This document shows positions 215 through 43,837 of a stretch of 64,000 bases of DNA, piece after piece. A model generated the notes under the pieces. It saw only the letters and a list, made by a program, of their open reading frames with translations. It had not been told where the DNA came from and made no database searches. The stretch comes from Rhodospirillaceae bacterium (GTDB lineage Bacteria > Pseudomonadota > Alphaproteobacteria > Rhodospirillales > JABHCV01): NCBI GenBank assembly GCA_018671895.1, contig JABHGV010000074.1, positions 1 through 64,000 of the forward strand, given 5' to 3'. Position numbers and translations under genes: made by a program. Every line of letters begins with the position of its first letter. The stretch's first letter is position 1.

Positions 215-298
215 ACTGCGAGCGTTAAATTTGCGTCAGAAATTCCTGGAAATTCGCAGCTAAACGCTGTGGCGCTAGGAGAGTGTTGAAGTCGAGTT

Positions 299-313
299 AC
301 TCTCCCTCCGCCA
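299..313 (+). other. Possible tRNA 3'-end remnant / integration site core
   Basis: The bases ACTCTCCCTCCGCCA look like the 3' acceptor strand plus CCA of a Ser-type tRNA, followed 7 bases later by a strong terminator, as downstream of a real tRNA gene. No D or anticodon arm precedes it and the T-loop is not canonical. This is the arrangement left at the distal end of an element that integrated into a tRNA 3' end. The RES fragment just to the left would then belong to the element. This is an inference, because the intact tRNA would lie outside the window. Confidence 0.35.
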
Positions 314-320
314 TAATTCA

Positions 321-353
321 ACCGGGTCCCAAAGGGGGCCCGGTTTTTATTTT
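321..353 (+). terminator. Rho-independent terminator
   Basis: ACCGGGTCCC (321-330) pairs with GGGGCCCGGT (335-344) over ten base pairs with one G-T wobble and a four-base loop (AAAG). A T-rich tail follows (345-353). It would end transcription from the left. Confidence 0.8.
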
Positions 354-372
354 GGGCGAAGGGGATCGGTAG

Positions 373-475
373 ACGAACCCTGGTTCGTGGCAACGCCGAA
401 GAGGCGTTGCCGACGCGGAGCGGTCCGAAGGGCTGTTGCGCCCTGAGGATGAAAATGCGTTTTGAGCGCATTTTC
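373..475. repeat. Array of four perfect hairpins
   Basis: Four inverted repeats follow one another. They are ACGAACC/GGTTCGT (373-388, 2-base spacer), GGCAACGCC/GGCGTTGCC (389-411, 5-base loop), AGGGC/GCCCT (429-444) and GAAAATGCG/CGCATTTTC (451-475, 7-base loop). The first two abut. None carries a T-tract, so this is not a plain terminator. It resembles an interspersed REP-type element or a structured RNA. Only one copy is visible here. Confidence 0.6.
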
Positions 476-749
476 ACAACCCCTCTCGCTGGGCCAAAAT
501 TCTTGAGTAGCCCATTGAAAATATTATGTTTTTGATGGTCTATTTCATTATGGGGTGCAAAATGGGGTGCAAATTAGCCCCAGACCTTATGGCTCAATAC
601 TCCCCTCATTGCATCGTAATTCAGTATATAAACTACCCTGCTTCAGGGAGAGTGCGGCTGCAATGCGACCGGACTAAAATAGCTTAGCAAGCGCTCCCCA
701 TTGCAGAACGCTTTTATCAGGATGGAATATTGCCATGAAGCAATTGAAG

Positions 750-32095: not shown

Positions 32096-34051
32096 TTATG
32101 TGCGGGGTTTCTTGGGTTTTTTCCGCTTCAGCGGAGCGGAGCCGGACAGGTCTTGCCCGCCGCCTTTTTCTGCTTTTCCGGCAAATTTGGACTTATGCTT
32201 TTTCTTGGTCTTGTCTTTTGGCTTTTTCGACTTTTTCTCCCAAGGTTTTTTCTCCCCGGACTTTTTCTCCCCGGACTTTTTCTCCCAAGGCTTCTTGTCT
32301 CCAGGCTTTTTAGCCTCTGACGTTTCGTCTGGCTTGCGTGAAAACGTGCGCTTTGGCTTTTTCTTGCCGTGGGCATCAGGCTTGTCGGACGTGTAGGATA
32401 TTTTCTTCTTGCCGCGCGCCCTGTCGGGGCCATCCCTCTGGGACTTCCTGGGCATAGCCGGGGCGTCTTTCAGGCGGGTCACGGAAATGGTCTTTTCCAT
32501 CTTGGCGCTGGGGCCTAGGGCTTCAAGGAACTTATCGACGCACTGGGGGGCAAGCTCGACATAGGTCTCGCGAGGCTGGATTCTAATCGCGCCTATTTCG
32601 TGCTTGGTGATGTGACCGGCCCGACACAGCATTGGCAACAGCCAGCGGGGCTCTGCGTTATGTTCGCGCCCGACAGACAAGGAAATCCAGACGCCGTCCT
32701 TGAAGTCTTCGCGTTGTTTTTGTGGACGTTCCGATGGTCCGGCATCCAGCAATTCTTCCGGTGCGGCCTGGTCCGCAAAATGCTTGCGCACGAAGGCGGC
32801 GGCGACCTGTTCGGGGCTGTGTCGGGTCAGAATTTCCTCGGCGAAGTTTTTTTCAATGTCGCTTAACGGCTCGCTCAAGGACGGGTCTGACAGCAGGCGC
32901 TCGTGATCGCGTACCATAACCTCTTCGGCGGACGGTGGCTTCGCCCAGGTGGCTTCGATGTTCGCGTTTCCTAACAGTCTCTCGGTTCGCTTGCGCCAGT
33001 TATGGGGCACAATCAAGGCACAAACGCCTTTGCGTCCGGCACGTCCTGTCCTGCCGCTTCTGTGCAGCAGAGTTTCGCGGCTTTTGGGAATATCGGCGTG
33101 AATAACCAGTTCCAGATTGGGCAGGTCAATACCGCGCGCCGCCACATCGGTGGCGACACACACGCGGGCGCGGCCATCGCGCATGGCTTGCAGGGCGTGG
33201 GTGCGCTCGTTCTGGCTCAATTCACCAGACAGCGCCACAACCGACAATCCCCGGTTGTTGAAGCGGCTGGTCATGTGGTTGACGGTGGCGCGGGTGGCAC
33301 AGAAAACCAGGGCATTTTTCGCTTCGAAATACCGCAGCACGTTGACGATCGCATTTTCCCGGTCGTTGGGCGCGACGGTAAGGGCGCGGTATTCGATGTC
33401 CAGATGCTGCTTCTTATCCGACATGGTGGCGACACGAATGGCATTGCGCTGGTAACGCTTGGCCATGGCCTCGATGGATTTAGGCACGGTGGCCGAAAAC
33501 ATTAATGTGCGACGGTCTTCCGGTGCCGCATCAAGAATGTATTCCAGGTCATCGCGAAAGCCCATGTCGAGCATTTCGTCTGCTTCGTCCAGGACCACGG
33601 CCTTCAGCCCTGTCGTGTTAAACGAGCCGCGTTCGATGTGATCGCGCAGCCGCCCCGGTGTGCCGACAACGATGTGGGCACCCCGCCCAAGGGCACGGCG
33701 CTCATCGCGCATGTCCATGCCACCAACACACGACACAACAGACGCCCCGGTCATTTCGTACAGCCATTCCAGTTCTCGTTTGACCTGCAAAGCCAGTTCC
33801 CGGGTCGGGGCGACGACCAGCGCCAGCGGGGCTTTGGTGTGCGGAAATCGGTCCGCATCCCCCAGCAGGTCTGATGCGACAGCGATGCCAAAGGCCACGG
33901 TCTTGCCCGATCCCGTCTGCGCGGAAACAAGCGTGTCGGCTGCTTTTAGTTCGGGGGCCAGTACGGCCTGTTGCACCGGGGTCAACACGGAATAGCCGCG
34001 TTTGTTCAACGCCTGGGCAAGCGCCGGAACGACGCCTTCGAAATCTGTCAT
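32096..34051 (-). CDS. DEAD-box RNA helicase with DbpA-like domain and Lys-rich tail
   Basis: The 651 residues contain the full DEAD-box core: AQTGSGKT (motif I), PTRELALQ (Ia), GTPGRLRDH, VLDEADEMLDMGF (II), FSATVPK (III), then DVAARGIDLP and HRSGRTGRAG (V and VI). A DbpA-type RNA-binding domain follows (about 465-540, with GVWISLSVGREHNAEPRWLL). The last about 100 residues are a basic tail with tandem copies of (P/S)(W/G)EKK. It probably remodels rRNA or structured mRNA. The ATG overlaps the stop of the 55-residue ORF (ATGA), so its translation is coupled to the sensor-kinase operon. Confidence 0.9.
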   Translation of the reverse strand: MTDFEGVVPALAQALNKRGYSVLTPVQQAVLAPELKAADTLVSAQTGSGKTVAFGIAVASDLLGDADRFPHTKAPLALVVAPTRELALQVKRELEWLYEMTGASVVSCVGGMDMRDERRALGRGAHIVVGTPGRLRDHIERGSFNTTGLKAVVLDEADEMLDMGFRDDLEYILDAAPEDRRTLMFSATVPKSIEAMAKRYQRNAIRVATMSDKKQHLDIEYRALTVAPNDRENAIVNVLRYFEAKNALVFCATRATVNHMTSRFNNRGLSVVALSGELSQNERTHALQAMRDGRARVCVATDVAARGIDLPNLELVIHADIPKSRETLLHRSGRTGRAGRKGVCALIVPHNWRKRTERLLGNANIEATWAKPPSAEEVMVRDHERLLSDPSLSEPLSDIEKNFAEEILTRHSPEQVAAAFVRKHFADQAAPEELLDAGPSERPQKQREDFKDGVWISLSVGREHNAEPRWLLPMLCRAGHITKHEIGAIRIQPRETYVELAPQCVDKFLEALGPSAKMEKTISVTRLKDAPAMPRKSQRDGPDRARGKKKISYTSDKPDAHGKKKPKRTFSRKPDETSEAKKPGDKKPWEKKSGEKKSGEKKPWEKKSKKPKDKTKKKHKSKFAGKAEKGGGQDLSGSAPLKRKKPKKPRT

Positions 34052-41902: not shown

Positions 41903-43837
41903 ATGGCTCCTGCCAACACAGAACAGACCCCATTTGATACCGGCGAAGTGTTCGCCGACCTTCTCGAAGAATCCCTCGGCAACAGCAACTCCTTTCAGGG
42001 CAGTGTCGTCAAAGGCACCATCATCGCGCTCGACGACGACGCCGCGACCATTGATGTCGGCCTGAAATCCGAAGGTCGTGTCGACATCAAGGAATTCACC
42101 GTTCCCGGCCAAGAGCCGGACATCAAGATCGGCGACGTTATTGATATTTTTGTTGAACGCTTCGAAGACAGGGACGGTGTTGTCCGTCTGAGCCGCGAAA
42201 AAGCGCGCCGCGAGGAAGCCTGGACCGAGCTGGAAAAACAGTTCGAGGCTACCGAGCGTGTCAACGGCGTTATCTTCGGTCGCGTCAAGGGCGGCTTCAT
42301 TGTCGACCTGTCCGGTGCGGTCGCCTTCCTGCCGGGAAGCCAGGTGGACATCCGTCCGGTGCGCGATATCTCGCCGCTGATGGGCACCCCGCAACCGTTC
42401 CAGATCCTGAAAATGGATCGCCAGCGCAACAACATCGTTGTCTCGCGCCGTGCCGTTCTGGAAGAAACCCGCGCCGAAGAACGTGGCGAGCTGATTTCCA
42501 ACCTGTCCGAAGGTCAGGTTCTGGAAGGCGTTGTCAAGAACATCACCGATTACGGTGCGTTCGTTGATCTGGGCGGCGTCGATGGCCTGTTGCATGTCAC
42601 TGACATTGCATGGCGTCGCATCAACCATCCGTCCGATGCCCTGCAGATAGGCCAGACCGTCAAGGTTCAGGTGATCCGCTTCAACGCCGAAACCCAGCGT
42701 ATTTCGCTTGGCATGAAGCAGCTGGAAAGCGATCCGTGGGAAGGCGTCAAATCCAAGTACCCGGTCGACGCCAAGTTCACCGGACGCATTACCAACATCA
42801 CCGATTACGGTGCTTTTGTTGAGTTGGAGCCGGGTGTTGAAGGCCTGGTCCACGTTTCGGAAATGAGCTGGACCAAAAAGAACATCCATCCGGGCAAGAT
42901 CGTTTCGACCAGCCAGGAAGTGGAAGTCATGGTTCTCGATGCCGATCCGGAAAAGCGTCGTATTTCGCTTGGCCTGAAACAGTGCAACGCCAACCCGTGG
43001 GAAGCCTTTGTCGACACCTTCAAGGTCGGCACCGAAGTCGAAGGCGAGGTCAAGAACATCACCGAATTCGGTCTGTTCATCGGTCTCGACGGCGAAATCG
43101 ACGGCATGGCCCACCTGTCCGATCTGTCCTGGGAAAAATCCGGCGAAGAAGCACTTGCCGATTTCAGCAACGGCGACATGGTCAAGGCCAAGGTGCTGGA
43201 TGTTGATGTTGAAAAAGAACGCATCAGTCTGGGGCTCAAGCAGCTCAGCGAAGATCCGTTTGCCTCTGAAATGGGCAGCATCAAAAAGGGCGACACCGTT
43301 ACCTGCACCGTTACCGGCATTACCACCGGTGGCATCGAGGTCAAGGTCGGCGACGGACTGCCGGGCTTCATCCGCAAGACCGATCTGTCGCGCGAACGTT
43401 CCGAGCAGCGTCCTGACCGCTACGCAGCGGGAGAAAAGGTCGATGCCAAGGTTACCCAGATCGACGCGTCGGGCCGCAAGCTGACCCTGTCGATCAAGAA
43501 CCTGGAAGCCGCCGAAGAGAAAAAGGCGATGAAGGAATACGGATCATCGGATTCCGGCGCATCGCTTGGCGATATTCTGGGTGCCGCCCTGAAGGAAAAG
43601 CAGGGTTCGTCTGACACCGATGACACGGCTGAAAAGAAACCGGCTAAAAAAGCCGCGGCCAAGAAAGCTGCACCGAAGAAGGCTGCCGCAAAAGAAGACA
43701 CGGCCGACGAGGCTGACGATAAGGCAGAAGAAAAACCGGCGAAAAAAGCCGCTGCCAAGAAGCCTGCGGCGAAAAAGCCTGCGGCCAAGAAAGCCGCACC
43801 GAAGAAAGCAGCCGCCAAAAAGGCGAAAGACGACTAA
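41903..43837 (+). CDS. rpsA: Ribosomal protein S1 with histone-H1-like C-terminal tail
   Basis: The 644 residues contain six S1 OB-fold repeats (about 30-100, 115-180, 200-270, 285-355, 370-440 and 455-530; ITDYGAFVDLGGVDGLLHVTDIAW is a model repeat). S1 brings mRNA to the 30S subunit. After residue about 570 the chain becomes a low-complexity Lys/Ala/Pro tail (AEKKPAKKAAAKKAAPKK and similar), interrupted once by an acidic stretch DTADEADDKAEE. S1 itself normally ends near 560-570, so the tail is an extension. It follows cmk by 147 bases and has its own leader. Confidence 0.95.
   Translation: MAPANTEQTPFDTGEVFADLLEESLGNSNSFQGSVVKGTIIALDDDAATIDVGLKSEGRVDIKEFTVPGQEPDIKIGDVIDIFVERFEDRDGVVRLSREKARREEAWTELEKQFEATERVNGVIFGRVKGGFIVDLSGAVAFLPGSQVDIRPVRDISPLMGTPQPFQILKMDRQRNNIVVSRRAVLEETRAEERGELISNLSEGQVLEGVVKNITDYGAFVDLGGVDGLLHVTDIAWRRINHPSDALQIGQTVKVQVIRFNAETQRISLGMKQLESDPWEGVKSKYPVDAKFTGRITNITDYGAFVELEPGVEGLVHVSEMSWTKKNIHPGKIVSTSQEVEVMVLDADPEKRRISLGLKQCNANPWEAFVDTFKVGTEVEGEVKNITEFGLFIGLDGEIDGMAHLSDLSWEKSGEEALADFSNGDMVKAKVLDVDVEKERISLGLKQLSEDPFASEMGSIKKGDTVTCTVTGITTGGIEVKVGDGLPGFIRKTDLSRERSEQRPDRYAAGEKVDAKVTQIDASGRKLTLSIKNLEAAEEKKAMKEYGSSDSGASLGDILGAALKEKQGSSDTDDTAEKKPAKKAAAKKAAPKKAAAKEDTADEADDKAEEKPAKKAAAKKPAAKKPAAKKAAPKKAAAKKAKDD

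Follow-up and report, generated by a model that had tools for sequence, protein, structure and literature searches.

A candidate tRNA-anchored, REP-like palindromic DNA element of Rhodospirillales behind four adjacent hairpins

Four adjacent hairpins in a contig of a Rhodospirillaceae bacterium are best explained, in our reading, as a copy of a roughly 100-nt tRNA-anchored, REP-like palindromic DNA element of Rhodospirillales that entered tRNA loops, an explanation to which we assign a probability of about 0.55. The evidence that carries it is the pairing kept among related copies and the placement of those copies behind, or inside, tRNA genes. The window referred to throughout is the whole stretch of DNA analysed, 64,000 nucleotides (64 kb) at the start of a contig in a draft genome.

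Hairpins and surrounding fold in the window

Direct reading of the letters confirms the four adjacent perfect hairpins that a sequence-only reading had placed at 373-475, with stems of 7, 9, 5 and 9 bp, the fourth of which comes to 10 bp on re-reading (450-476), and, as that reading had also claimed, no T-run behind any of the four stems. Among 20,000 first-order Markov shuffles of 373-475, at least four such hairpins appeared in 6 and the same total stem length in none, and none of the window's other 103-base tiles equals the stem total of this segment. Folding 345-505 as RNA gave z = -4.9 for the + strand and z = -6.4 for the - strand, while 354-500 folded as single-stranded DNA gave z = -5.9. 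The four hairpins form the inner part of a larger fold of about 349-500 (Table 1); the sequence-only reading had missed a fifth small hairpin and a closing stem (about 349-364 with 480-500) as well as a terminator and a tRNA-Ser-like 3' end directly upstream.

Table 1. Features of the window copy, with arms, loops and the basis of each assignment
Feature	Position	Strand	Basis
Putative island end and tRNA-Ser 3' end remnant (CTCTCCCTCCGCCA at 300-313)	278..313	+	tRNA identity suggested by other loci with a tRNA 3' end at the same position
H0, terminator-like hairpin ACCGGGTCCC..GGGGCCCGGT with TTTTTATTTT, behind the tRNA remnant	321..353	+	Other tRNA-adjoining copies have a hairpin at the same position
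Closing stem, left arm (ATTTTGGGCGAAGGGG)	349..364	+	MFE and centroid folds
H1, hairpin ACGAACC-CT-GGTTCGT with inverted T-arm motif, CGAACC opposite GGTTCG; 7 bp as the letters stand, 6 bp and a 4-nt loop on steric grounds	373..388	+	Motif precedes most copies
P2, hairpin GGCAACGCC-GAAGA-GGCGTTGCC, 9 bp; sequence hypervariable, pairing conserved	389..411	+	Covariation
P3, short hairpin CGC GGA GCG	414..422	+	Covariance alignments
P4, conserved GTCC...GGAT helix around inner hairpin AGGGC-TGTTGC-GCCCT (429-444, 5 bp)	423..450	+	Most conserved part of the alignment
P5, hairpin TGAAAATGCG-TTTTGAG-CGCATTTTCA, 10 bp (9 by first count)	450..476	+	Covariation
Right flank, tRNA-3'-end-like AACCCCTCTCGCTGGGCCA and closing stem right arm	478..500	+	Fold; tRNA likeness suggested by other copies

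The segment at 300-313 looks like the end of a tRNA-Ser, and that at 478-500 would be a copy of a tRNA 3' end, of which only the pattern shows here. The sequence GGAGAGTGTTGAA, at 278-290 in the window, is found again at the genome's second copy (L033), in both cases a little ahead of the tRNA-Ser-like remnant, and is possibly a shared island end. The C-terminal part of a RES-domain protein (PF08808) fills 2-214, at the contig start, and is presumably island cargo. We take the window copy to be an old, diverged and degenerate example in which a genomic island with a RES-domain gene has replaced the 5' part of the tRNA-Ser.

Several further features of the contig were recorded in passing. An open reading frame at 784-1593 encodes a PAS-HisKA kinase without a HATPase domain and runs into a weakly DUF748/AsmA-like open reading frame at 1590-2282, the pair being a truncated kinase, a degenerate gene or an assembly join. 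Direct repeats of 15 bases at 32214-32333 and 43626-43834 probably lie in coding sequence, as low-complexity protein tails, and a cobalamin riboswitch is located beyond the window on the same contig (L135, 12521-12736).

Copies across the order and conservation of pairing

A search of the genome and its relatives, which the sequence-only reading had proposed, yielded a second copy in the genome itself and many in relatives. Plain DNA comparison recovered a single copy in the own genome and, among 60 relatives, one clear homologue, with more across the order. A covariance model built from seven copies located the second own-genome copy (G000:C77) and copies in 5 of the 8 genomes of an Oleispirillum-like genus, and named records bearing a copy include Oleispirillum naphthae Y-M2 and Rhodospirillum sp. 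UBA1311. With a second covariance model, 29 of 317 genomes of the order were positive, more than half of these Thalassospira, a genus identified from a pattern match in G050 whose coordinates coincide with those of the T. lucentensis record L092; one further Thalassospira genome is positive beyond the 29, and 11 Thalassospira genomes gave no model match. Overall, about 40 other copies were found in 29-30 of roughly 320 Rhodospirillales genomes, carried by Oleispirillum, Thalassospira and several MAG lineages, with absences that are soft because the searches scored only the best candidates per genome. About 18 of 29 Thalassospira genomes have one copy behind tRNA-Met. Copy number is low, with two in the own genome and 1-7 seen per genome. 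A pattern search of 385 genomes of the class returned the window and two chance matches only, blastn gave no match in plasmids and phages, and of 28 pattern matches in IMG/VR viral contigs none scored with covariance model R3, a Thalassospira-specific pattern giving none there. As far as sampled, the family is confined to Rhodospirillales at low copy number.

Variants of the unit were also seen. It is duplicated in tandem at L037/L039 and L072, and a shortened copy at a tRNA-Ser(TGA) (L164) consists of GGTTCG, P4 and P5 only and is followed by the tRNA 3' end at 18 of 19 positions. In Oleispirillum naphthae, palindromes with the related core GTCCGAGGCGAAGCCGAGGATGAGGAAAATGCC form a dispersed family of six pattern matches (L036, L044-L047); those members that were read do not lie at tRNAs and often adjoin another palindromic repeat, GCGCGTAGCGC...GCGGCGAAAAA.

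The conserved order of the unit is GGTTCG-P2-P3-P4-P5-CAC. The arms of P2, P3 and P5 vary freely yet stay complementary, while GTCC...GGAT is nearly invariant, and the compensatory changes that the sequence-only reading had suggested looking for with a covariance model prove to be strong and far above controls. In an alignment of 17 copies (A6), the paired share of cells is 97.4%, falling to 83.8% in shuffles and to 36-50% with the structure slid, and 17 of 32 pairs have changed on both sides; in one of 39 copies (A7), 97.8% are paired against 82.5% shuffled, with 22 pairs changed on both sides. None of 500 shuffles reached any of these measures and slid structures stayed below 55% paired. All these figures lean upward, since each alignment was fitted to the structure and its copies are related to one another, but the margin is large. 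The element is therefore a structured nucleic acid under pairing constraint, with compensatory changes in excess of controls.

Covariation by itself cannot distinguish the two nucleic acids, RNA and DNA; compensatory changes could also come, without selection, from the correction of palindromes as they replicate. G-U pairs make up 10 of 1058 standard pairs in the element (0.9%) versus 37 of 602 in the tRNA genes of the same loci (6.1%), and 61 of its 143 hairpin loops have three bases. Rare G-U pairs and triloops are indirect indications, and would fit DNA-level selection or palindrome correction better than RNA.

Linkage to tRNA genes and competing explanations

Because the tRNA is not part of the covariance model, linkage to tRNA genes is independent evidence. 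Of 43 copies, 26 follow an intact same-strand tRNA at no more than 400 bp, most of them at a distance of 62-85 nt, and the adjoining tRNAs are Ser, Arg, elongator-type Met and, at L144, initiator Met (fMet). In 12 copies an intact tRNA is accompanied by an insertion in its 3' part and a duplicated 3' end, the right flank agreeing with the adjacent, isotype-matched tRNA 3' end at 15 to 19 of 19 positions (19/19 for the fMet tRNA at L144); the window keeps remnants only. In many copies the second tRNA 3' end behind the element begins in the T-loop (AATCC...CCA). Other copies, including that of the window, lie behind tRNA 3' remnants where foreign DNA has taken the place of the 5' part (L029, L033, L085, L157, L159, L160). 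At L014 and L035 the element interrupts an extra tRNA copy, that of tRNA-Arg(CCG) in the T-loop and that of tRNA-Ser(TGA) in the anticodon loop, respectively. The insertion breakpoints, TTCG^AATCC in the T-loop and CTTG^AAA in the anticodon loop, coincide with what we take to be the usual cut sites of tRNA-targeting tyrosine recombinases.

Comparison of single loci adds to this picture. In the Oleispirillum-like genus, the tRNA-Arg(CCG) locus is filled in G211, G302, G303 and G122, is empty in G069 and G304, with neither hairpin terminator nor element, and in G148 holds a remnant of the left end with prophage-like genes behind it. That the G148 site might house a large parent element was considered and set aside, as no matching right end was found over about 78 kb. 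Across 17 Thalassospira loci the core has an identity of 0.87, against 0.53 for the upstream 200 bp and 0.22, which amounts to unrelated sequence, for the downstream 200 bp. Several of these loci have a LysR gene directly downstream and others unrelated genes, including one for an AbiEii-like ATPase; these diverging flanks and variable downstream genes suggest that islands may insert on either side of the element. Among the neighbours sampled, a tyrosine integrase adjoins a single copy (L018), and no integrase is encoded within the unit itself, which is non-coding and under about 200 bp.

As to how the element inserts and what it does, we infer that it acts as folded single-stranded or cruciform DNA, entering T-loops at TTCG^AA, and once an anticodon loop at CTTG^AA, by way of the tRNA-integrase cut site. 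Since it shows no gene of its own, movement would be in trans. Most likely, the folded element inserted, the tRNA 3' half was duplicated and the tRNA was kept alive, since the 3' half and the terminator are restored upstream of the element. That each copy has the 3' end of its own tRNA is better explained by target duplication than by one fixed attP; it also stands as a point against, since one site-specific integrase would not account for such ends unless the target were duplicated. In Thalassospira, vertical inheritance would have followed, with islands apparently inserting on one side or the other. The stable, conserved Thalassospira core looks more like function than like a parasite, and this counts against a mobile element.

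That same core, kept at high identity while its flanks diverge, would suit a structured non-coding RNA downstream of tRNA genes, produced by read-through or from its own promoter and acting in cis or trans. Strong covariation around the highly conserved GTCC...GGAT core and a strand constant relative to the tRNA favour such an RNA too, and at L014 the element lies within an otherwise complete tRNA gene with its upstream region and so would be transcribed. We consider an RNA rather unlikely all the same: in most copies a terminator-like hairpin stands between the tRNA and the element, leaving about 30 nt for a promoter, G-U pairs are few, and copies occur at different tRNAs, in loops, in tandem and in decayed form. 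A search of Rfam 15 gave no family at the gathering cut-off for the element; the best sub-threshold match in a permissive search, RsmW (27.9 against a cut-off of 52), lends no support, and a fluoride riboswitch call near the element at L016 was judged spurious. Of the structured RNA that the sequence-only reading had envisaged, the conserved covarying structure outside known families has thus held up, but the near-absence of G-U pairs points to DNA.

Duplicated tRNA 3' ends, island remnants on either side, the integrase beside L018 and variable cargo downstream would also be expected if there were no element as such, and repeated insertion and excision of genomic islands had duplicated tRNA ends and left palindromic attachment debris. 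We hold this to be improbable, as the core is homologous and covaries across different tRNAs and families, which marks a defined unit rather than debris, and searches of IMG/VR viral contigs did not turn it up. A role as an unusual transcription terminator, or as an insulator, for the tRNA gene would account for the position directly behind the tRNA terminator and for the turnover of neighbouring DNA; it is very improbable, given four stems that all lack a T-tract, a canonical terminator that already precedes them in the window, and the absence of the element at the same tRNA in G069 and G304.

Relation to known systems and significance

Searches of the open-paper literature on tRNA-linked palindromes, Thalassospira repeats and RNA motifs brought up no account of a comparable tRNA-anchored element. 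The REP-like family guessed at from the letters is borne out as a repeat family with copies, but not as REP in the strict sense, since copy number is low, each unit has 4-5 hairpins, the units are bound to tRNAs and most carriers lack a RAYT. In RAYT-linked REPs a single hairpin of 20-40 bp has an unpaired tetranucleotide, GTAG or a similar one, at its foot. At the foot of H1, the window reads GGTAGACGAACC and other copies GGTGA, so that the conserved GTAG tag is missing, and the high dispersed copy number of REPs is replaced by few copies, mostly at tRNA 3' ends, each one unit of about 100 nt. Shared with REP/REPIN sequences and their RAYTs are short non-coding intergenic palindromes, variable stems, a patchy distribution and a probably non-autonomous nature. 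The REP-associated Y1 transposase (PF01797) is absent from all eight tested genomes that have full copies (G000, G211, G122, G259, G302, G303, G059 and G065) and present only in G108 (a doubtful copy at most) and G226 (a partial copy); a RAYT is unlikely to be the mover, because it is absent from most carriers.

Integron attC sites and other folded single-stranded recombination substrates keep structure over sequence and leave their paired arms free. The element is like attC in conserving structure over sequence, a likeness drawn from general knowledge, the look for R/L box motifs and for a linked integron integrase going no further than a reading of the letters. Islands that target tRNAs by P4-type integrases resemble it in their T-loop or anticodon-loop sites, the flanking duplication of the tRNA 3' end and the restored tRNA function; they differ in that the element is under about 200 bp, has no integrase gene and occurs at four kinds of tRNA (Ser, Arg, Met, fMet), in each case with the 3' end of that tRNA.

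CGTC-tagged REPs, as described in PMC3733652, are 20-40 bp long, with stems of 8-9 bp that have AT at their base, loops of 4-5 nt and a tail of the CCA type. Like these and the Rickettsia palindromic elements, the element is alphaproteobacterial and has no dedicated transposase, and some CGTC dimers lie within larger palindromes (PMC3733652). Unlike the CGTC-tagged REPs of that account, it has free stem sequence, many 3-nt loops and tRNA 3' ends as brackets, and its sequences, set against the definition given there, belong neither to these REPs nor to the Rickettsia palindromic elements.

More tentatively, and with the odds against it, the copies may represent a class of minimal gene-less mobile elements, roughly 100-170 bp long, which enter tRNA loops as folded single-stranded DNA; duplication of the 3' half would rebuild the tRNA, and the second tRNA 3' end left behind could be an extra attachment site for islands. 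As genomic islands in bacteria dock mainly at tRNA genes, the tRNA-anchored palindromic element, if the reading is true, would be a new player at these docking sites, whether as an integration passenger, a decoy attachment site or an unrecognised RNA, and Thalassospira, which is culturable, would offer a concrete case in which these possibilities can be separated.
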